From: Alicyclobacillus kakegawensis NBRC 103104 | Lineage (GTDB): Bacteria > Bacillota > Bacilli > Alicyclobacillales > Alicyclobacillaceae | Assembly (NCBI RefSeq): GCF_001552655.1 | Contig: NZ_BCRP01000001.1 | Span: 1 to 64,000, forward strand | Length of the DNA stretch: 64,000 nt | Direction: 5' to 3' | Shown: piece after piece, positions 1,191-18,494 of the stretch | Numbering within the stretch: the first letter of the stretch is position 1 | Layout of the letters: each line of letters opens with the position of its first letter | Notes under the pieces: model-generated | Database searches by the model: none | What the model was told of the DNA's origin: nothing | What the model saw: the letters and a program-made list of their open reading frames with translations, nothing else | Made by a program: the position numbers and the translations under genes

Positions 1191-2519
1191 CTACAACCCG
1201 TGCGCGATGTCGCGCCGCAGATACTTGCCGGCAAACGTGATGCCGTCGGTTCCGCCATAGGCCGTATCCCGCGCCTCGGAGAGGGTCTGTCCGACGCCTG
1301 TCACCGTCAGCACGCGGCCGCCCGCCGTCTTCAATCCCTCCGCCTCCCACGCGGTTCCGGCATGAAACACGATGCATCCCTCCGGTCCTCCCTGCGCCAA
1401 GCCCGGTCCTGGCACAGACACGGATGCGCCCAGCTTGGGGGCGAAGGAAATCACGTCCCCCTTGCGCGGCGAGTCCGGGTACCCGGCCGCGGCCAACACC
1501 ACACACACCGCGTGGTCCGGCCTCCAGGCCACCTTCACCTCCGCGAGGCGGCCTTCGCTGACCGCCCAAGCTATCTCCAACAAATCGGACGCCAAAAGCG
1601 GCAGGACCACTTCCGCCTCCGGATCGCCCAAACGAACGTTGAACTCCACCACCTGCGGCCCGTCGTCCGTCAGCATCAAGCCAACGTACAGCACACCGCG
1701 GTAAACGCTGCCCCGCTCCCGCAGCGCCGCCAGCGTGGGCCGGACAATGCGCCGCTCCACCTCCCCCGCCAGCGCCTGGCTGTCCGCGTCCGGCAGCGGC
1801 GCGTAGGCGCCCATGCCACCCGTGTTGGGTCCGGTGTCCCCTTCACCGATGCGCTTGTGATCCCGCGCCGGCAGCATGGGCACGACGGCGCTCTCGTCGA
1901 TGAAGAACATAAGCGACGCCTCGCGCCCAACCAAGAACGACTCAATCACCACGCGCCGGCCGGCCTCGCCGAAGCGGCCCGCCTGCATCATGCCGTCGAC
2001 GGCGCGGCACGCCTCCTCCACCGTCCCGGCCACCGTGACGCCCTTGCCGGCCGCCAGACCGTCCGCCTTGACAACAATGGGCGCCCCCTGCCGCCGGATG
2101 TACGCCTTCGCCGCCTCCGCGTCGGTGAACGTCCGGTGCGCCGCCGTCGGCACGCCGGCCTCCTCCATCAGCGCCTTGGCGAACGCCTTCGACGTTTCCA
2201 ACTGCGCCGCCGCCTTCGTCGGGCCAAAGGCGCGGACGCCCGCCTCGGTCAAGGCGTCGACCAACCCGACAGAGAGCGGTTGCTCCGGCCCCACCACCAC
2301 CAGCTGGATGCCCTGCGCGCGGCAAAACGATACCAAGCCGCCCACATCGTCCGCGCCCAGCGGCACACACTCCGCCACCTGGGCCAGTCCCGGGTTCCCC
2401 GGCGCCGCATACAGGCGCGGCGCCAGCGGGCTTTGCGCCAGCTTCCAAGCGATGGCGTGTTCGCGCGCGCCCGCGCCGACCACCAAGACCCGTGGCTGGT
2501 TTGGGATTTCGAGTGCCAT
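1191..2519 (-). CDS. purD: Phosphoribosylamine-glycine ligase (GAR synthetase)
   Basis: 442 residues in the ATP-grasp fold. It ligates glycine to phosphoribosylamine, step 2 of de novo purine synthesis. The N-terminus carries the family's VLVVGAGAREHAIAWKL nucleotide-fold signature. Other typical stretches are GPEQPLSVGLVDAL, IVVKADGLAAGKGV (ATP-grasp) and GDPEAEVVLPLL near the C-terminus. The ATG at 2519 is chosen because GAGGAGA stands just upstream and the protein then begins like other PurD proteins; the reading frame is open further upstream, but that part is shadow sequence of purH. It is the last purine gene, 13 nt after purH. Confidence 0.97.
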   Translation of the reverse strand: MALEIPNQPRVLVVGAGAREHAIAWKLAQSPLAPRLYAAPGNPGLAQVAECVPLGADDVGGLVSFCRAQGIQLVVVGPEQPLSVGLVDALTEAGVRAFGPTKAAAQLETSKAFAKALMEEAGVPTAAHRTFTDAEAAKAYIRRQGAPIVVKADGLAAGKGVTVAGTVEEACRAVDGMMQAGRFGEAGRRVVIESFLVGREASLMFFIDESAVVPMLPARDHKRIGEGDTGPNTGGMGAYAPLPDADSQALAGEVERRIVRPTLAALRERGSVYRGVLYVGLMLTDDGPQVVEFNVRLGDPEAEVVLPLLASDLLEIAWAVSEGRLAEVKVAWRPDHAVCVVLAAAGYPDSPRKGDVISFAPKLGASVSVPGPGLAQGGPEGCIVFHAGTAWEAEGLKTAGGRVLTVTGVGQTLSEARDTAYGGTDGITFAGKYLRRDIAHGL

Positions 2520-2532
2520 CTTGTCTCTCCTC

Positions 2533-4173
2533 TCAATGCAAGAAGTGGCGCCGGCCGGTGAACACCATGGCAATCCCGTGCTCGTCCGCCGCCTCGATGC
2601 TCTCTTTATCCTTGATCGATCCGCCCGGCTGCACGATGGCGGTGACGCCAGCCGCGGCGGCGGTGTCCACCGTGTCGCGCATCGGGAAGAACGCGTCCGA
2701 CGCCAGCACGCTGCCCGCTGCACGCGGTCCGGCCTGCTCGATGGCAAGCTTGGCGGCGCCGACGCGGTTCATCTGCCCAGCGCCAATCCCCAGCGTCATC
2801 ACCGAGTTAGCCAAGACAATCGCGTTTGACTTGACGAAGCGGACAATGCGCCAGCCAAACCGGAGGGCCCGCCACTCCTCCTCGGTCGGCTGGCGGCGCG
2901 TGACCACTCGCCACGCGTCCGCCCCCGCGTCGCCGATGTTGACCTCCTGTACCAAGAGACCACCCGAGACGCGGCGCAGCAGGTGATCCCCGGGCCGCCA
3001 AAGCGGCCTGGTCACATCAATCTCCAGCAGGCGCAGGTTCTTTTTCCGCCCCAGCCGCTCCCGCGCCTGCTCGCTGAAGCCGGGCGCCACGACGATCTCC
3101 AGGAACATCGACGCCAGCCTCTCCGCCAATTCGGCCTCGACGGCCCGGTTGAGGGCCACGATGCCGCCGAAGATGGAGACGGAATCCGCCTCGTAGGCGC
3201 GATCAAACGCCTCATTGAGCGTCGCGCCCAGGCCGACGCCGCACGGGTTCATGTGCTTGACCGCCACCGCCGCCGGCTGCCCCAGGTCGTCCAGGGCGCG
3301 CAGGATTTGCAGCGCGGCGTCCGCGTCCTGGATGTTGTTGTAGGACAGCTCCTTCCCCTGCAGCTGGCGCGCCCCGGCTATTGTCGCCGGACTGGCGTCC
3401 GCATCAGCATAGAAGTGCGCCCGTTGATGCGGGTTTTCCCCATAGCGCAGGGCCTGCTTGTGGACAAACGACACCTGATAAAGTGGCGGCCAAGGCGCGT
3501 CGGCGGGCGCACCCGCCGGTTGGTCAGGCCCCTGCTCCGCCAGCGGCCGCCCTTGCGGTTCGCCCTTTTGCTCGGAACGTCCGTCCCGCGTCGCGGCCGC
3601 CTCCAGGTAGGCGGCAATCGCCGCGTCGTAGGCTGCCGTTTCCGCGAACACCTTGGCCGCCAAACGCGCCCGTTCGGCTGCCGTCAGCTCCCGCCCGCTC
3701 GCGAGCGCTTCGCCCAGCCAGACGTAATCGGCCGGATCGACCACCGGCAGGCAGCCGCCGTGGTTCTTCGCGGCGGCGCGCAGGAGTGACGGTCCGCCGA
3801 TGTCAATCATCTCCACCGCCTCGGCAAACGTCACGTCCGGCCGCGCGACGGTCTCGCGGAACGGGTACAGGTTGACAACCACCACGTCAATCCGATCGAT
3901 GCCATGCTCGGCAATCGCCGCCATGTGGCTGGGGTCGTCGCGGCGCGCCAGCACACCGCCGTGGACGCGTGGGTGCAGGGTCTTCACGCGCCCTTCCAGC
4001 ATCTCCGGAAAACCGGTGTAATCCGACACCTCCGTCACCGCGAGGCCTGCCTCCCGCAGGTGGCGGGCCGTGCCCCCGGTCGAGAGGATGCCGAACCCGG
4101 CCGCGACCAGGCAGCGGCAGAAATCGGCGACGCCTTGCTTATCGAAAACGCTGACAAGAGCCCACTTGTTCAC
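2533..4173 (-). CDS. purH: Bifunctional AICAR transformylase / IMP cyclohydrolase
   Basis: Catalyses the last two steps to IMP. The N-terminal MGS-like cyclohydrolase domain shows STGGTARHL and [14 protein letters not shown]; the C-terminal transformylase domain shows [19 protein letters not shown] and the final lysine/serine-rich region. It is 546 residues, longer than the roughly 510 usual in Bacillus. The excess is a Gly/Pro/Ala/Gln-rich insert between the domains at about residues 195-230, just before the YGENPHQ motif. Two in-frame GTG codons (4179 and 4173) are possible; 4173 gives better spacing to AAAGGAAG and a 4-nt GTGA overlap with purN, matching the neighbouring junctions. Confidence 0.96.
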
Positions 4174-4841
4174 GTGCACGTCTTCCTTTCCCAGGTTTCT
4201 CCACGAAGCAGCCCGCGCACCGCCAGACTGATGGCCAGCGGGTACAACCCATGTTCGACCGCGTGGATGCGCGTCAGCAAATCCTCCTCGCTACTGCACT
4301 CCGGGATGGACACGCGCGCCTGCAGCAAAATCGGCCCCGTATCCACCCCCGAATCGACCAGGTGCACCGTCACCCCGGTCTCCCGCGCCCCCGCGGCCAG
4401 AGCGTCTTTCACCGCCTGACGGCCGGGGAAGTTCGGCAAGAGGGACGGGTGGATGTTGAGGATGCGATTCGCATACGCGCCCAGCAGCACGTCGCCCACC
4501 AGCCGCATGTACCCGGCGAGAGCCACCCATTCCACCTCATGCTGCCGCAAAAACGCCAGCACGTCCCGTTCAAACGCCGGCTTGTCCGGGTATTCGCGCG
4601 GGCGCCTGGCGAACACCGGCACTCCCGCCCGCTGCGCCCGCGACACCGCGCAGGCGTCCGGCTTGTCCGACACCACCGCCACCACCCGCGCCGGCCAGGC
4701 GGGGTTGCGCGCCGGTTCTTCGAGCAGCGCCTGCAGGTTGCTGCCGTTGCCCGAGGCGAAAACCGCCAGGCGCGCTCGATGGCCACCGACTGGCGTGGTG
4801 GGCGTCTTCTGGCCAACCTGTGACCATGCGCAGGGTTTCAC
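4170..4841 (-). CDS. purN: Phosphoribosylglycinamide formyltransferase
   Basis: 223 residues. Transfers a formyl group from 10-formyl-THF to GAR (step 3). Recognisable motifs are LAVFASGNGSNLQAL at the N-terminus, RILNIHPSLLPNFPG (catalytic Asn-His region) and VTVHLVDSGVDTGPIL with the catalytic Asp. The GTG at 4841 overlaps the purM stop as GTGA and is preceded by GGAGGGC; no ATG is available in the right place. Translation is probably coupled to purM upstream and purH downstream through 4-nt overlaps. Confidence 0.95.
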   Translation of the reverse strand: MKPCAWSQVGQKTPTTPVGGHRARLAVFASGNGSNLQALLEEPARNPAWPARVVAVVSDKPDACAVSRAQRAGVPVFARRPREYPDKPAFERDVLAFLRQHEVEWVALAGYMRLVGDVLLGAYANRILNIHPSLLPNFPGRQAVKDALAAGARETGVTVHLVDSGVDTGPILLQARVSIPECSSEEDLLTRIHAVEHGLYPLAISLAVRGLLRGETWERKTCT

Positions 4842-5926
4842 CGGCCGCCCTCCTTCACAAGCCGCGCATCCCCGCCGCCGGGGATGATGCGCCCAATCCG
4901 GTAGGCGCGCTCCCCGTGCTCGGCAAACCACCGCACCGCGCCATCAGCCTGCTCCTCCGGAACGACCAGCGTGTAGCCGACGCCCAGGTTCCAGACGCGG
5001 GCCGCCCGCGCCAAGTCCATACCGCTTTGCGCCAGCAACCAGGAGAAGACCGGCGGCACCGACCAGCGCCCCGGCCAGATCTCCGCGGTCAGGCCGTCCG
5101 GCAGCGAGCGCGGCACGTTCTCCACCAGTCCCCCGCCGGTGATGTGCGCCATAGCGCGGATATCCATTCCGTCGGCCAAAGCCGCCAACACTGGCCGCAC
5201 GTAAATGCGGGTGGGCCACAACAGTTCATCCGCCCAGGTCCAGGGGCGCTTGGCTGCTGTCGCGCCCAGGACCTGCGGGCCGCGGGCGGCCGCAAACGGC
5301 AGCGGATCCGCCAGATCGACGCCCACCTCGGCAATCAGCTTGCGCACCAGCGAATAGCCGTTGGAGTGCAGGCCATCGCTGGCCAATCCGATGAGGGCAT
5401 CGCCCGCCTGAACGCGGTGGCCGTCGATGATGTCCGGCTGGTTGGCCACCCCCACGGCGAATCCGGCCAGATCATATTCGCCGGGCGCGTACATCCCCGG
5501 CATCTCCGCCGTCTCGCCGCCCAACAGGGCGCAGCCAGCCGTCCGGCAGCCAACAGTGACGCCTGCCACCACCGCTTCCGCCACCTCCACGTCCAGTTTG
5601 CCTGTCGCCAGATAATCGAGAAAGAACAGCGGCTCGGCGCCCGAGGTGAGGATGTCGTTGACGCACATCGCCACACAGTCGATGCCAATGGTGCCGTGGC
5701 GTCCGGTGGCAAACGCCAGTTTCAGCTTTGTCCCCACGCCGTCGGCGCCCGAGAGCAGCACCGGTTGCGGAAAGCGGTTGACGTCGATGCGGAAGCCGCC
5801 GGAAAAGCCGCCGATGGCCGCCATCACCTCCGGCCGGCGCGTTTCTGCGGCCAGACGGGCATAGCGCCGCGCCGCTTCGTTGCCCGCCGCGATGTCGACC
5901 CCGGCCGCGCGGTACTCGTCGCTCAT
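4838..5926 (-). CDS. purM: Phosphoribosylformylglycinamidine cyclo-ligase (AIR synthetase)
   Basis: 362 residues in the PurM/PurL-like ATP-binding fold; closes the imidazole ring (step 5). Motifs include IGGFSGGF, SGADGVGTKLKLA, CVNDILTSGAEPLFFLDY and LLGGETAEMPGMY. The ATG at 5926 overlaps the purF stop by one base (TGATG) and lies 9 nt from GGAGGT; an in-frame GTG one codon upstream is an equally spaced alternative. Middle of the overlapping purine operon. Confidence 0.96.
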   Translation of the reverse strand: MSDEYRAAGVDIAAGNEAARRYARLAAETRRPEVMAAIGGFSGGFRIDVNRFPQPVLLSGADGVGTKLKLAFATGRHGTIGIDCVAMCVNDILTSGAEPLFFLDYLATGKLDVEVAEAVVAGVTVGCRTAGCALLGGETAEMPGMYAPGEYDLAGFAVGVANQPDIIDGHRVQAGDALIGLASDGLHSNGYSLVRKLIAEVGVDLADPLPFAAARGPQVLGATAAKRPWTWADELLWPTRIYVRPVLAALADGMDIRAMAHITGGGLVENVPRSLPDGLTAEIWPGRWSVPPVFSWLLAQSGMDLARAARVWNLGVGYTLVVPEEQADGAVRWFAEHGERAYRIGRIIPGGGDARLVKEGGR

Positions 5927-7356
5927 CACACCCCGACCTCCTGCTGGCTGACGTCGTACTGCTCCTTGCTGATAGGGTACACCTCGGTCGGATAGCGACC
6001 GGTGAAACAAGCGTTGCAAAACGGATAGGGCGCATCCTGAGGCACTCCAAACGCCTCCATCGTCTCCTCCACCGTCAGGAATTCGAGCGAATCCGCCCCA
6101 ATCTCGCGGCAGATCCCCTCCACAGAATGGTCCGCTGCAATCAGCTGGCCCTTCGAGGAAGTGTCGATGCCGTAGTGACAGGCGTGTTTGTATGGCGGGC
6201 TGGAGATGCGCACGTGCACCTCCGTCGCTCCCGCCTCGCGCAGCAGCTGCACCAGGCGGCGGCTGGTGGTGCCGCGGACAATCGAATCGTCAATCAGCAC
6301 CACCCGCCGTCCGTCCACCACCGAACGCACCGCGTTCAGCTTCAGCCGCACACCCAGGTCGCGCAGGGCCTGGGAGGGCTGGATGAACGTGCGCGCCACG
6401 TACTTGTTTTTCACCAGCCCCATCTCGAGCGGGACGCCGCTGGCCTCGGCAAACCCGGCCGCCGCCGAGACACTGGAGTCGGGCACGCCAATCACGATGT
6501 CGCCCGCCGCCGGGTGGCGCTCGGCCAGGATGCGGCCCAGCTTCTTGCGCACCGCGTGCACGTTCCAGCCGTCGATGTCGCTGTCCGGGCGCGCAAAATA
6601 GATATGCTCGAAGGTGCACATCGCCCGCCGCGTCGGCTGCGCCGGTGCAATGGCGGTCAGCCCGCCCGCGTCGATGACCAGCGTTTCCCCGGGCTCGACG
6701 TCGCGGACGAACTCGGCACCAATCGTCTCAAACGCGCACGACTCGGACGCCACCACGTACGCCTCGCCCAACCGGCCCAGAGCCAGGGGACGCAGGCCGT
6801 ACGGATCGCGCAGGGCGATGAGCCGCTCGTCGGTCAACAGCACAAACGCGTACCCGCCCTTGACCATGCTCACGCTGGTGCGCACCGCCTCAATCAGGTT
6901 GGTCTGCACGGAGCGGGCAATCAGGTGCGCCACCACCTCGGTGTCGCTGGTCGACTGAAACAGGCTCCCCTGGCGCTCCAGGAGCACGCGCAGGGCGGGC
7001 GCGTTGACCAGGTTGCCGTTGTGGGCCAACGCCAGACTGCCGCGGTGCGTGCGGAAGGTCAGCGGCTGCGCGTTCTCGAGCGTGTTCTGCCCAGCCGTCG
7101 AGTAGCGGACGTGGCCAATCGCCGCGTGGCCGCGCAGGCGCGCCAAGTCCTCGCACGTGAACACGTCGGAGACCAGGCCCAGGCCGCGGTGGTTGTACAT
7201 CCGTTCCCCGTCCACGCTAGCCATGCCGGCCGCCTCCTGGCCGCGGTGCTGCAGCGCAATCAGCGCCACGTGCGCGATCTGCGCCGCGCTGGGATGGCCA
7301 TAAATGCCAAAGACGCCGCACTCCTCATGGAGGCCATCTGTCCGTTCCAGCCTCAT
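5926..7356 (-). CDS. purF: Amidophosphoribosyltransferase
   Basis: 476 residues; commits PRPP to purine synthesis with glutamine as nitrogen donor. A short propeptide of about 12 residues precedes CGVFGIYG, so Cys13 is the expected N-terminal nucleophile after cleavage. Features of the iron-sulfur class are visible: Cys in MCTFEHIYFARP, Cys in HACHYGID and a CNAC motif near the C-terminus, as in B. subtilis PurF. The PRPP loop VVLIDDSIVRGTTSRR is intact. The ATG at 7356 overlaps the purL stop as TGATG. Confidence 0.97.
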   Translation of the reverse strand: MRLERTDGLHEECGVFGIYGHPSAAQIAHVALIALQHRGQEAAGMASVDGERMYNHRGLGLVSDVFTCEDLARLRGHAAIGHVRYSTAGQNTLENAQPLTFRTHRGSLALAHNGNLVNAPALRVLLERQGSLFQSTSDTEVVAHLIARSVQTNLIEAVRTSVSMVKGGYAFVLLTDERLIALRDPYGLRPLALGRLGEAYVVASESCAFETIGAEFVRDVEPGETLVIDAGGLTAIAPAQPTRRAMCTFEHIYFARPDSDIDGWNVHAVRKKLGRILAERHPAAGDIVIGVPDSSVSAAAGFAEASGVPLEMGLVKNKYVARTFIQPSQALRDLGVRLKLNAVRSVVDGRRVVLIDDSIVRGTTSRRLVQLLREAGATEVHVRISSPPYKHACHYGIDTSSKGQLIAADHSVEGICREIGADSLEFLTVEETMEAFGVPQDAPYPFCNACFTGRYPTEVYPISKEQYDVSQQEVGV

Positions 7357-9650
7357 CACGCATCCGCCTCCCCTCGCGCGCTGGGCGCCTGCATGGCCTG
7401 CGGCAGCGCGCCCTCGTAGGCGGCCTGGGCCGCCGCCAACGGCAGCGTCAACCAAACCCCGTCGTCGCCGCCGATGCTCACCGCGTCTCCGCCGGTTTTG
7501 CCGAGCACGAGCGCCGTTACACCTGCCTGCCCCGCCTCCTGGACGATGTCCTGTGCCGACGCACAGTCCACCTCGAGCAAAATCCGGCTCTGCGCCTCCG
7601 AGAACAACAGCCCGGCCCGCTGCAGGGCGTCTCGGGGCGTCACGGGCAGAGTCACCGTGGCGCCAACGCCGCCTGCGATGGCCATCTCCGTCAACGCCAC
7701 CGCCAGGCCGCCTTCCGAGACGTCGTGCGCGGAGCGGACACGGCCGGCCCGGATGAGGCTTCGCACCAAGTCCTGCACGCGCCGCTCCAGCGCCAAATCG
7801 AGGGGCGGGGCGTCGCCGGCCGGCTGGCCGGCCAGCAACTGCCAGAACAAGCTGCCGTCGAGCGCGGCGTCGATGGGACCGACGAGGATGACGGCGGAAT
7901 CGGCCGCGCGAAACGCCGCCTCGGTTACGCGCGTCAGGTCGTCAATCACGCCGATTGCGCCGACCACCGGCGTCGGGAAGATGTCCTGCCCCTGGCTCTC
8001 GTTGTAGAAGCTGACATTGCCGCTGACCACCGGCGTGTCGAGCGCCCGGCAGGCCTCAGCCATCCCCTCCACAGCGTCGATAAACTGGCGCATGACGGCA
8101 GGCTTTTCCGGGTTGCCGAAGTTCAGGCAATCGGTGATGGCGAGCGGTCTTGCGCCGCTGGCCACCAGGTTGCGGGCCGCCTCGGCCACGGCAATCGCCC
8201 CGCCCCGGCGCGGGTTGAGGTACACGTAGCGGCCGTTGCCGTCAGTGGCCAGCGCCACGGCGCGCGCCGCGCCCGGCAGGCGCAGCACCGCCGCGTCGCT
8301 GCCCGGCCCGACCTGCGTCGCCGTGCGCACGCTGGTGTCATACTGACGATACACCCAACGCTTGTCGGCGATCGAGGGGTGCGCGAGCAGAGCGAGCAGG
8401 TGCTGCGCCCAGGCATCTGCGTCCCCCGCCGGCAGATCAGGCTTGGCCACCGCCAAACCGGGTTTCGCGTACTTTGTGTCCGCCGGGCGGTCGTACACCG
8501 GCGCCTCGTCCACCAAAGCCGCCACCGGCACATCCGCCACCACCTCCCCGGCGAACCGAAGACGCAACCGACCGTCGCTGGTCACGCGCCCGATCTCCGC
8601 GACCTCCAGGCCCCACTTGCGCAAGATGGAAAACGCCAGCTCTTCCCGGCCCCTCTCCATGACCACCAGCATCCGCTCCTGCGATTCAGAGAGCATCATT
8701 TCGTACGGGGTCATGCCTTCCTCGCGCACCGGCACCAGGTCCAGGTTGAGCTCCAAACCGCCGCCGGCGCGCGCCGCCATTTCCGCCGAGGAGGAGGCCA
8801 GCCCGGCCGCGCCCATGTCCTGGATGCCGACCACCGCGCCCGTCGCAATGAGTTCCAGGCAGGCCTCCATCAGGAGCTTGCCGAGGAACGGATCGCCCAC
8901 TTGCACGGCGGAACGCTCCTTCTCCGTCGGGTCCTCGGCCGACGCGAAAGTGGCGCCATGGATGCCGTCGCGCCCCGTCCGCGCGCCGACCACAAACACC
9001 GGGTTGCCCACGCCGCGCGCCGCGCCCTTGGCCATCTTGTCGGCCTCCAACACGCCGACGCACATCGCGTTGACGAGCGGGTTATGACGGTAGCTTTCGT
9101 CAAACGCCGTCTCGCCGCCGACGGTCGGGATGCCGACACAATTGCCGTAACCGCCGATGCCGGCCACCACGTTGGCGAACAGATAGCGCGTGCGCTCGTC
9201 TGTCAAAGGGCCAAAGCGCAGGCTGTCGAGAAACGCAATCGGGCGCGCTCCCATCGTGAACACGTCGCGCAAAATCCCGCCGACACCAGTGGCCGCGCCC
9301 TGGTACGGCTCCACGGCCGAGGGGTGGTTGTGGCTCTCCATCTTGAACGCCACCGCCAGACCGCCGCCCACGTCGACGACGCCCGCGTTCTCACCCGGGC
9401 CTTGCAGGACCTGCGGACCGCTGGTCGGGAACTTGCGCAGGTGGATTTTCGAGCTTTTGTAGCTGCAGTGTTCCGACCATAACACGCCGAACAGACCTGC
9501 CTCGACGTAGTTGGGCAGACGCCCCAGCCGCTCGCAGACGCGCTCGTACTCGGCATCGGTCAAGCCGAGATCGAGGTACCGGCGCTGCTCCCTTATCTCC
9601 TCGGGCGCCGGCTGGCCGCTTGGTACGGCCGCCTTCGTCTTTACGCGCAC
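7356..9650 (-). CDS. purL: FGAM synthase large subunit (small-type PurL)
   Basis: 764 residues, the short Gram-positive form that needs PurS and PurQ as separate subunits; it makes formylglycinamidine ribonucleotide (step 4). Motifs include [46 protein letters not shown] and the duplicated AIRS-like ATP-binding domains ([21 protein letters not shown]). The GTG at 9650 lies one base after the purQ stop and about 10 nt from GGAAGG. Upstream codons in this frame overlap purQ and do not look like PurL. Confidence 0.96.
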
Positions 9651-9651
9651 C

Positions 9652-10365
9652 TCAGCCAAGCCTTCCCACTCCTTCCGCGGACGCCGCCAGTGACGCCCCC
9701 TGTTGTTCCACAAAGCGGTGCATGGACGTGAACATGCGGGCTCCGTCGGCCGAACGCATCCATTCGGCCACCGCCCGCTCCGGGTGCGGCATCAGGCCCA
9801 GAACGCGGCCGTTGGCCCCCAGCACACCGGCGATGTCCTGGGCCGATCCGTTTGGATTCTGCACATATCGAAAGGCGATTCGCTGTTCTCGCCGCAGCCG
9901 CGTCAGCGTCGCCGCGTCCGCATGGTAGCGCCCGTCGCGGTGGGCGATGGGGATGCGGATGCGCTCGCCGGCAGCGTAGTCGAGCGTGAACGGCGTCTTT
10001 GTGTTCTCCACCTGCAGTTCAGCCAGCTCACAGCAAAACTGCAGGTGATCATTGACGAGCAGTGCTCCGGGCAAAAGCCCCGCCTCAGTGAGCACCTGGA
10101 ACCCGTTGCAAATCCCCAGCACCAGGGCGCCACGCTGGACGGCCTCGCGGACACCGGCAACCGCCGGCGCAAAGCGGGCGATGGCGCCGCTGCGCAGGTA
10201 ATCGCCGTAAGAAAAGCCGCCGGGAAGGATGATGGCGTCGTACGCCGACAGATCGCGCTGGTCGTGCCAGACGAGGTCGACCGCGTCGCCGAGCACCCGG
10301 TCAATCGCCAGAGCCGCGTCCTCGTCGCAATTTGATCCGGGGAAGACGATGACCGCCCATCTCAT
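9652..10365 (-). CDS. purQ: FGAM synthase glutaminase subunit
   Basis: 237 residues, class-I glutamine amidotransferase. It starts with [16 protein letters not shown]. The nucleophile Cys is in [10 protein letters not shown], and the catalytic His/Glu are in LMPHPERAV. It supplies ammonia to PurL in the PurLSQ complex. The ATG at 10365 overlaps the purS stop by 4 nt (ATGA). Confidence 0.96.
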
Positions 10366-10622
10366 TGGGCTTCCTCCTCCACAAGCACGGCGTACGTCTC
10401 CATCACCGGATTGCACAGCAGCTCTTCACAGGCCCGGCGCACCTTCGCCTCCGCCTCGTCGCGATTGTCGGCCGCCACCGTCAACTCGATGGACTTGCCG
10501 ATGCGCACCTGCTCCACGCCCTCGTGGCCAAGGCTGGTGAGTGCCTGCAGCACCGCGTGCCCCTGCGGGTCGAACACGCTCGGCTTCAACCACACCCGAA
10601 CTGTCGCACGCCACTTCGTCAT
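10362..10622 (-). CDS. purS: FGAM synthase subunit PurS
   Basis: 86 residues, the normal PurS size. It contains the family pattern [19 protein letters not shown] followed by [11 protein letters not shown] and a C-terminal [11 protein letters not shown]. PurS dimers bridge PurQ and PurL for ammonia transfer. It is coupled by 4-nt ATGA overlaps to both purC (upstream) and purQ (downstream). Confidence 0.96.
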
Positions 10623-11341
10623 GCCTCTATCCCCTCTTCCACACGGCTTAATACTTCCCGGTAGGCCGCCTCAATGTCGCCCAGGTCACGGCGAAAGCGG
10701 TCTTTGTCCAGTTTCCTCTGCGTCTTCGCGTCCCAAAACCGGCAGGTGTCCGGCGAGATTTCATCCGCCAGGCGCAGCCTGCCCTCGGCGTCGACGCCGA
10801 ACTCCAGTTTGAAGTCGACCAGGGTGATGCCGATGCGGCGCAAAAAACCGCCCAGGATGTCGTTGACAAGCAGCGCCGTCTCCCGCATCTCATCGCGCTC
10901 GGCCGCCGGTGCGAGGCCCAACACCTCAATGTGATCATCGGTGACGAGCGGATCGCCCAGGGCGTCGTCTTTGTAATAGAATTCGACAATCGGGCGCGCG
11001 AGCGGCGTGCCCTCGACGACGCCGAGCCGCTTGGCCATGCTGCCCGCAGCCAGATTGCGCACCACCACTTCCAGCGGCACGATGCGCACAGCATGCACCA
11101 GCGTCTCGCGGTCGCTGAGCGGCTCGATGAGGTGCGTCAGCACACCGTGCTTGGCGAGCAGCCGCATGAACAGATTGGACAGTCGGTTGTTGACAACCCC
11201 CTTGCCGGCGATGGACCCGCGCTTCTGCCCGTTGAAGGCGGTCGCATCGTCCTTGTACTCGACGATGTACTGCTCAGGGTTGTCTGTGCGATAGACCTTT
11301 TTCGCCTTGCCTTCGTAGAGCAGTTCCCATTTGGCGGCCAT
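10619..11341 (-). CDS. purC: SAICAR synthetase
   Basis: 240 residues; ligates aspartate to CAIR (step 7). Typical stretches are [13 protein letters not shown] at the N-terminus, [25 protein letters not shown]-type sequence and [12 protein letters not shown]. The ATG at 11341 is preceded by GGGAGAGG. It is the first gene after the guanine riboswitch, so the riboswitch should control purC through purD. Confidence 0.97.
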
Positions 11342-11378
11342 GGTACCTCTCCCTCACTGTGGTATGTCGAAGGCCCGG

Positions 11379-11426
11379 AACGATAAACGGCCCGCTCCCC
11401 GACCTACGCGGGGAATGCGAGCCGTT
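11379..11426 (-). terminator. Riboswitch-controlled terminator before purC
   Basis: On the minus strand AACGGCTCGC pairs with GCGGGCCGTT around an inner CCCCG/CGGGG stem, followed by TATCGTT. The inner left arm (11401-11416) is also complementary to the 3' P1 strand of the upstream aptamer (11564-11578) over about 14 of 16 positions. That is the signature of a mutually exclusive antiterminator. The trailing U-run is imperfect. Confidence 0.6.
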
Positions 11427-11568
11427 GCTGGCTGGCGGCACCGAGGCGCGCAAACCGGCGCAAACCGCTGTGCGCCGGGTTGGCGCAGACCGTCTGCCTC
11501 GCCCGAGCCGGCAGCTGCCAGCTTGGCGCGGGCAAGCCGGCCAAAATGACGCCTGGTGCCCTGATTCC

Positions 11569-11638
11569 CCTCGTAGTCCGGACCTTTACGGGGTCCGGGT
11601 AGAAACTCTCAGGCCGTATCCCTGAGGATATACGAGAG
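11569..11638 (-). promoter_or_regulatory. Guanine riboswitch (purine aptamer) between purB and purC
   Basis: Read on the minus strand: P1 CTCGTA / TACGAG, the J1/2 and P2-L2 block ending in the TTTCTACC core, P3 stem CCGGACC / GGTCCGG with a CCGTAAA loop, and the closing GGACTACGAG. The pyrimidine that selects the ligand is C, as in guanine/hypoxanthine aptamers. A terminator and complementary antiterminator strand follow about 140 nt downstream. It should switch off purC-D when guanine is plentiful, leaving purB upstream unaffected. Confidence 0.92.
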
Positions 11639-11725
11639 TGACCCGTATTTGATTGTTGGCGCACGTTGTCTCTGCTTGTCAGGGCCACGGCTGTGCCGCA
11701 AACGCGCCGGGCGCGGAGGCGGCCG

Positions 11726-13018
11726 TCAGATGCCGAGGCGCGCGAGAATCTCGTCCACCCGGCGCAGGTGCCAGGCGGGATCGAAACACGCCTTGAGCTC
11801 CTCCTCGCTGAGCCGCTCCCGGACGAGCGGCGCCTCGCGGATGATGTCGTAGAACGGGCGCTCCTCTTCCCAGGCGCGCATGGCGGCTGGCTGCACGGTG
11901 TCATACGCCTCTTCGCGCGCGACACCCTTGTCAATCAAGGCGGTCAGCACGCGCTGGGAATACGTCAGACCGTGGGTACGCTCCATGTTCCGTTTCATGT
12001 TCTCCGGATAGACGCGCAGGTCCTTCAAGATGCGGTTCATCCGGTGCAGCAGGTAGTCGGTCAAAATCGTGGCATCCGGGAGGATGACGCGCTCGACCGA
12101 CGAGTGGCTGATGTCCCGTTCATGCCACAGCGGCACGTCCTCCAACGCCGGCACGACAAACCCGCGCAACACGCGCGCCAGCCCGCTTATCTGCTCGCAG
12201 CCCACCGGGTTGCGCTTGTGCGGCATCGCGGATGATCCTTTCTGCCCCTTGTAAAACGGCTCCTCAACCTCGCGGATCTCCGACTTCTGCAGGCCGCGGA
12301 TTTCGGTCGCAATCTTGTCCAGGGTGGTGCCGATGAGGCTGAGCGTGAAGATGAACTCGGCGTGCCGGTCTCGCTGCAGGGTCTGCGTGCTGATGGGCGC
12401 CGGCTTGAGCCCCAGGCGCTGGCAGACGTATCGTTCCACGAACGGATCGACATTGGCGTAGGTGCCGACCGCCCCGGAGATCTTGCCGTAGCGCATGCGC
12501 TCGGCGGCCGCTTCGAAGCGCTCCAAGTTCCTGTCCATCTCGGCGTACCAGAGCCCCGCTTTGAGGCCAAACGTGGTGGGTTCGGCGTGCACGCCGTGCG
12601 TGCGGCCCATCATGATGGTGTGGCGGTGCCGGTCGGCGAGAGTGCGCAGGGTCTCAAGGATGTCCTGCAGATCCGCCCGGATGATGGCAATCGCCTGCTG
12701 CAACTGCGCGGACAGGGCGGTATCGACGACGTCTGTCGAGGTCAGGCCGTAATGGACCCACTTGCGCTCCGGGCCCAGCGACTCGGACACAGCGCGCGTG
12801 AAGGCGACCACGTCGTGACGTGTGGTCTCCTCGATTTCCAGGACGCGCTCCACAGAGAACCGGGCCTTCTCACGAATCGCCGCCGCGTCTTCCTCAGGAA
12901 TGACCCCCAACTGGGCCCACGCCTCGCAGGCGAGGATTTCCACCTGCAACCACCAGTGGTACCGCTGTTCCAACGTCCAAAGCCTGCCCATCTCAGGGCG
13001 GGTATAGCGGTCAATCAC
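11726..13018 (-). CDS. purB: Adenylosuccinate lyase
   Basis: 430 residues, essentially the B. subtilis length. Splits SAICAR and adenylosuccinate, serving both IMP and AMP synthesis. It opens with [13 protein letters not shown] and carries the signature [12 protein letters not shown] with the catalytic Ser loop, plus [11 protein letters not shown]. The GTG at 13018 follows GGAGGAG by 7 nt; upstream in-frame residues do not resemble the family. It is the promoter-proximal gene of the pur cluster; purE and purK, which precede purB in B. subtilis, are absent here. Confidence 0.97.
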
Positions 13019-13076: not shown

Positions 13077-13105
13077 AGTGTAACCCCGGTCTGCTGGGGT
13101 GTCAA
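13077..13105 (-). promoter_or_regulatory. Sigma-A promoter of purB
   Basis: On the minus strand TTGACA (13105-13100), 17-nt spacer, TACACT (13082-13077). It lies about 60 nt upstream of the purB start. Confidence 0.8.
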
Positions 13106-13108
13106 CCA

Positions 13109-13153
13109 AAATCCGAACGATGAAAGAAATTATGCACAAGAATGTTCGTCCAT
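13109..13153. promoter_or_regulatory. PurR-like box pair upstream of purB
   Basis: AAATCCGAACGAT (13109-13121) matches the Bacillus PurBox consensus AWWWCCGAACWWT at all but one position. An inverted half-matching copy, AATGTTCGTCCAT, lies at 13141-13153. The pair sits directly upstream of the purB -35, the expected location, but the spacer is 19 bp rather than the 16-17 bp reported in Bacillus. It could also affect the divergent nitroreductase promoter. Confidence 0.5.
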
Positions 13154-18473: not shown

Positions 18474-18494
18474 AGCAAGACGAACTCCGACACA

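Follow-up and report, generated by a model that had tools for sequence, protein, structure and literature searches.

A guanine-type riboswitch between purB and purC in Alicyclobacillus kakegawensis, with a proposed role in mid-operon attenuation

In Bacillus subtilis, the pur operon is preceded by a promoter whose -35 element has a PurBox-type operator immediately upstream, and then by a guanine aptamer and a terminator, with the riboswitch lying between the promoter and purE (PMC8789054, PMC10912719). The PurBoxes themselves contain a CGAA/TTCG core, adopt an inverted arrangement and are located upstream of the -35 element (PMC8789054). In the guanine–PRPP tandems, a guanine aptamer is followed by intervening RNA and then by a pur terminator, and the two aptamers are only 5–7 nt apart (Sherlock et al. 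2018, PMC5912903).

We analyzed a 64,000-nucleotide stretch of the Alicyclobacillus kakegawensis NBRC 103104 genome (the window), following up an earlier reading of its sequence (the original prediction). Its pur locus has regulatory parts that follow one another as in the B. subtilis operon – a putative PurBox-type operator, a promoter, a guanine-type aptamer and a predicted terminator hairpin – but their placement relative to the genes differs. Instead of the usual operon-leader order of promoter, riboswitch and first gene, purB intervenes between the promoter and the riboswitch, and purE and purK are found elsewhere.

Gene order and the purB–purC aptamer

The locus is encoded on the minus strand in the order promoter, purB, aptamer, terminator and purC-S-Q-L-F-M-N-H-D. 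The purB gene (11726–13018) encodes adenylosuccinate lyase, with matches to PF00206 and PF10397. Its start is likely the GTG at 13018, which follows GGAGGAGG and is where homologue alignments begin; the TTG at 13105, which is the longest-ORF start for purB in the ORF list, coincides with the -35 hexamer TTGACA. The first gene past the switch is purC (10619–11341, PF01259), with a Shine-Dalgarno sequence, GAGGGAGAGG, at 11355–11346. The remaining genes, purS-Q-L-F-M-N-H-D, occupy 1191–10622 and were assigned from open reading frames, gene order and homologues, with approximate start positions.

Between the end of purB (11726) and the start of purC (11341) lies a guanine-type purine aptamer at 11554–11655, with a core that runs from P1 to P1 at about 11638–11568. 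The RF00167 covariance model matched the aptamer end to end (11655–11554 on the minus strand, model positions 1–102) and scored 82.7 bits, where the gathering threshold is 37. The original prediction had placed an aptamer between purB and purC rather than ahead of the whole operon and had suggested an Rfam purine scan; this full-length match, taken with the Pfam matches of purB and purC, bears it out. The RNA has the three-way P1/P2/P3 junction of RF00167 members, and its P2 and P3 helices covary across 35 Alicyclobacillaceae aptamers. The aptamer is an ordinary member of this RNA family.

A C, rather than a U, at the base-pairing position of a purine aptamer specifies guanine. Consistent with this specificity, we identified a guanine-class GACUA core with a C at the specificity position, and CCGGACUACGAG is common to all three species of the genus. 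From these residues we infer that the ligand is guanine.

The 3.42 Mb genome carries two further purine aptamers. One, scoring 73.3 bits, is guanine-type and lies within the window at 18490–18390 on the minus strand, where it precedes guaA and a gene for an NCS2-type purine permease. The other is located on a different contig (L049, about 4001–4102; G000:C12:79901–80002), ahead of xpt- and pbuX-like genes. The terminator of this xpt/pbuX-side aptamer follows after about 208 nt, a second example of a long gap within this genus.

Antiterminator pairing, terminator and spacer

The claim that the 3' strand of P1 is complementary to the inner left arm of a terminator before purC proved correct to the base. 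GACUACGAGGGGAAU (11578–11564) pairs with AUUCCCCGCGUAGGUC (11416–11401), with exactly one A–G mismatch and one bulged G. The 5' half of the putative antiterminator is the P1 3' strand with its extension (11564–11578, minus strand), and the 3' half is the inner left arm and loop of the terminator (11401–11416, minus strand), which is invariant in the three species. When all 127,964 18-nt segments of the window, taken from both strands, were compared, only 41 paired with the P1 strand as strongly; accidental complementarity within a given terminator arm is therefore improbable (roughly 1% if about 40 positions are allowed for).

Across the three species, the P1 3' strand and the terminator left arm are 89–100% conserved. 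Relative to the window, the other two species show identities of 100% and 97% in the aptamer core, of 100% and 95% in the linker that leads to the left arm, and of 100% in the left arm itself. Because both halves are nearly invariant, these three genomes of one genus offer almost no covariation for the antiterminator. Other Alicyclobacillaceae aptamers have different P1 extensions, each of which also matches its own terminator.

Folding of both states, another suggestion of the original prediction, yielded the proposed switch in truncated transcripts of all three species. A transcript that stops short of the terminator's right arm folds as the antiterminator, while one that extends to the terminator end folds as P1 plus terminator. 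In minimum-energy folds the antiterminator was favored by 6–9 kcal/mol once the left arm had just been made, and P1 plus terminator was favored by 2–6 kcal/mol after completion of the right arm; in 3/3 species the flip occurred only with the right arm complete or nearly so. The pairing and the predicted folds thus make the P1 3' strand and the terminator mutually exclusive through the antiterminator.

When longer downstream sequence was included, the free fold could drift back to the antiterminator via a second hairpin, GUCGGGG.GCGGGCC / GGGCCUUCGAC (11366–11403, minus strand). This alternative hairpin is predicted in the antiterminator state of all three species and may sequester the right arm of the terminator in transcripts that read through. 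The partner of the right arm in this hairpin is a CGGGCCYUCGACA element that follows the terminator and is kept in the three species.

The predicted terminator (11379–11426, minus strand) comprises a strong hairpin and a weak U-tract (UUUAUCGUU), with a stem at about 11426–11386 and a predicted free energy of about -28 to -29 kcal/mol. Its T-score is 4.05, and those of its counterparts in the other two species are 3.21 and 3.79; riboswitch terminators of the Alicyclobacillaceae have a mean of 4.94 (range 2.86–5.96), and most have a stronger U-tract. The tail is U-richer than random – 0.4–2.6% of random 15-mers score equally high – and a simple terminator scan omitted the hairpin. RNAalifold, run on the three sequences together, gave a consensus that lacked the outer terminator stem, although each sequence folds the stem singly. 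The tail, TTTATCGTT, is the weakest link, and leaky termination is quite possible.

The end of P1 and the terminator left arm are separated by 152–188 nt in the three species. The original prediction considered its gap of about 140 nt unusually long, but such a length is ordinary within the Alicyclobacillaceae, where aptamer-to-terminator gaps range from about 43 to 217 nt (about 43–110 nt in related pur leaders and about 208–217 nt in the genus's xpt leaders). In each species the spacer folds as one closed domain of about 124–159 nt, with z-scores of -4.1, -3.7 and -4.5 relative to shuffled sequence. The domain of the window, GGCACC...GGUGCC (11437–11560, minus strand), is 49% and 36% identical to its counterparts – a divergent sequence with a kept structure. 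Its closing helix, GGCACC/GGUGCC (GGUGUC in one species), has pair probabilities near 1. The domain begins 3–4 nt past the antiterminator 5' half and ends 19–20 nt before the 3' half, and the effective distance between the halves should therefore be short. We read the gap as a closed folded domain that would join the antiterminator halves, not as bare distance.

Two other identities for the gap were considered and rejected. A mobile or repeated element does not fit a sequence with just one copy in the genome that carries it and none found in the other two genomes. A second aptamer does not fit either, as the gap has no Rfam match to one and its sequence is unconserved; the genus shares with the guanine–PRPP tandems a guanine aptamer, intervening RNA and a pur terminator but differs from them in having no Rfam match to a PRPP (ykkC-type) aptamer in the gap.

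Promoter position and proposed two-tier control

A sigma-A type promoter, TTGACA-17-TACACT (10/12 consensus), lies ahead of purB at 13077–13105 on the minus strand, and its hexamers and spacing are identical in the two other species (genomes G001 and G002). Just upstream is an inverted CGAAC/GTTCG pair, GGACGAACATT ... TCGTTCGGATTTT (13109–13153, minus strand) – a PurBox-like sequence and putative PurR operator that is kept in G001 and G002. Most Alicyclobacillaceae genomes carry a PurBox-like pair and a promoter in front of either purE or purB. Since the pair stands at the purB promoter and a gene for a PurR-type protein (PF09182) is present in the genome, purB is probably under PurR control.

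No second recognizable promoter was found between purB and the aptamer. In a consensus scan, which an atypical promoter inside purB could escape, the best match within 150 nt of P1 was 7/12 in each of the three species. This is a background level, as 28.9% of random 155-nt windows reach at least 8. In all three species, the 150 nt upstream of P1 also showed no PurBox, and the purB–aptamer interval contained nothing that resembled a terminator. The sole recognizable operon promoter is upstream of purB, which would place purB between the promoter and the riboswitch.

We consider it very likely that the locus carries a guanine OFF riboswitch that acts by transcription attenuation in mid-operon, under two-tier control by PurR and guanine. 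Transcription would start upstream of purB, where PurR probably represses it, pass through purB and then reach the aptamer. Without guanine, the terminator left arm would capture the P1 3' strand, with the spacer fold bringing the two halves together, and RNA polymerase would continue into purC-purD. With guanine, P1 would be held, the terminator would form and transcription would stop ahead of purC. PurR would govern the whole unit and guanine would govern purC-purD only.

PurB has a double role, acting in IMP synthesis and in the synthesis of AMP from IMP. Because of this double role, the arrangement may keep purB available for AMP synthesis from IMP when guanine is plentiful. The split control put forward in the original prediction is supported, with one qualification. 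With a promoter ahead of purB, none detectable between purB and the aptamer, and folds that are predicted to switch, purB would escape the guanine switch, but it probably stays under PurR control.

A different reading makes the aptamer the leader of a separate purC-D transcript that starts from an undetected promoter in the end of purB, with purB as its own unit. This is the usual solution elsewhere: three aptamers that likewise lie inside a purine gene cluster – L172 (Epulonipiscium MAG, purK-purE-aptamer-purC, aptamer at 3683–3784), L187 (Thermotalea) and L153 (Clostridiales PH28) – have PurBox- and promoter-like sequence directly upstream, judged by eye, and look like leaders of separate transcripts. 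The purB–purC aptamer differs from them in all three species, having no PurBox and a background-level promoter match where the leaders of relatives mostly reach 9–10, and the PurBox-promoter of the operon stands ahead of purB. We therefore regard a separate purC-D transcript as unlikely. We also doubt a reading in which the hairpin is an inefficient terminator and the switch mainly affects how purC is translated or how stable the mRNA is, even though the poor U-tract and the conserved downstream element, with its potential to pair with the terminator's right arm, would suit such a role. Predicted accessibility of the Shine-Dalgarno sequence is about equal in the two states (0.32/0.31, 0.43/0.50 and 0.36/0.31 in the three species), and for lack of a clear difference we rejected translational control via the purC Shine-Dalgarno. 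The hairpin, at about -28 kcal/mol and with its U-enriched tail, is moreover placed where related riboswitches carry a terminator.

It is very improbable that the element is a relic, with an aptamer or platform left unresponsive when purB moved. Such a relic would account for a placement unique to the genus among the surveyed genomes and for the weak terminator tail, but the divergence within the locus points the other way: the aptamer core (97–100%) and the left arm (100%) are conserved relative to the spacer (36–49%), which indicates selection on the parts of the switch. In the attenuation reading that we favor, the mechanism itself is the textbook one. The variant features are its site behind the first gene without a promoter of its own and its structured, sequence-free spacer.

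Relatives of the riboswitch and possible rewiring of the operon

Purine aptamers are present in all 41 Alicyclobacillaceae genomes examined (16 genera). In most of these genomes an aptamer lies ahead of guaA; aptamers also lie ahead of purE in genera g2 and g3 and ahead of purB in genus g16. In a neighboring family of the same order, 0/16 genomes (G025–G040) have a purine riboswitch.

The original prediction had recommended comparing the purB–purC junction in related genomes, and we found the purB-aptamer-purC layout kept in 3/3 species of the window's genus (g1). This placement was found in no other of the 41 family genomes and at none of 80 named purC loci from a genome collection composed mostly of Firmicutes; a purine aptamer lies within 4 kb ahead of purC at four of these 80 loci. 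The genome survey was non-exhaustive. In the literature searched, whose coverage was partial, we found no description of a purB-riboswitch-purC arrangement.

The purE-leader riboswitches of g2 and g3 and the purB-leader riboswitch of g16 belong to the same aptamer subtype as the g1 aptamer. They differ from it in preceding the first gene and in having terminators about 43–110 nt away, most with stronger U-tracts. Over 67 nt, the g1 core shares 88–93% identity with the g2 and g3 aptamers that precede purE; with guaA and xpt aptamers it shares no more than 78%, in gap-free comparisons by which cores with indels are not fairly scored. The purE-leader aptamers mostly lie directly behind a PurBox-promoter similar to that of g1, which is seen in g3 and in one g2 genome; the g3 sequence (GTTCGGATTTTGGTTGAC...) is close to the g1 purB promoter.

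In g1, purE and purK lie elsewhere in the genome, and a search of the 600 nt preceding them revealed no PurBox pair. The simplest reading of these sequence comparisons is that purEK departed and that purB took up a place between the promoter and its riboswitch. The PurB and PurC trees are too poorly resolved to separate vertical retention from aptamer transfer.

We lean slightly toward viewing the locus as an evolutionary rewiring, in which the bifunctional purB gene, placed between promoter and riboswitch, would be exempt from end-product attenuation while keeping its repressor, and in which a sequence-free, structure-conserved spacer would bridge the antiterminator. The locus would then represent a natural case of selective exemption, where one gene moved across a riboswitch alters which steps are under end-product control. 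The sister genera with the ancestral-looking order provide a comparison set. An aptamer and a terminator may work together over a long sequence distance when the RNA between them closes into a fold, a point of relevance to searches that aim to recognize expression platforms. Because purB acts in both IMP and AMP synthesis, gene order alone could uncouple the guanine and adenine branches.
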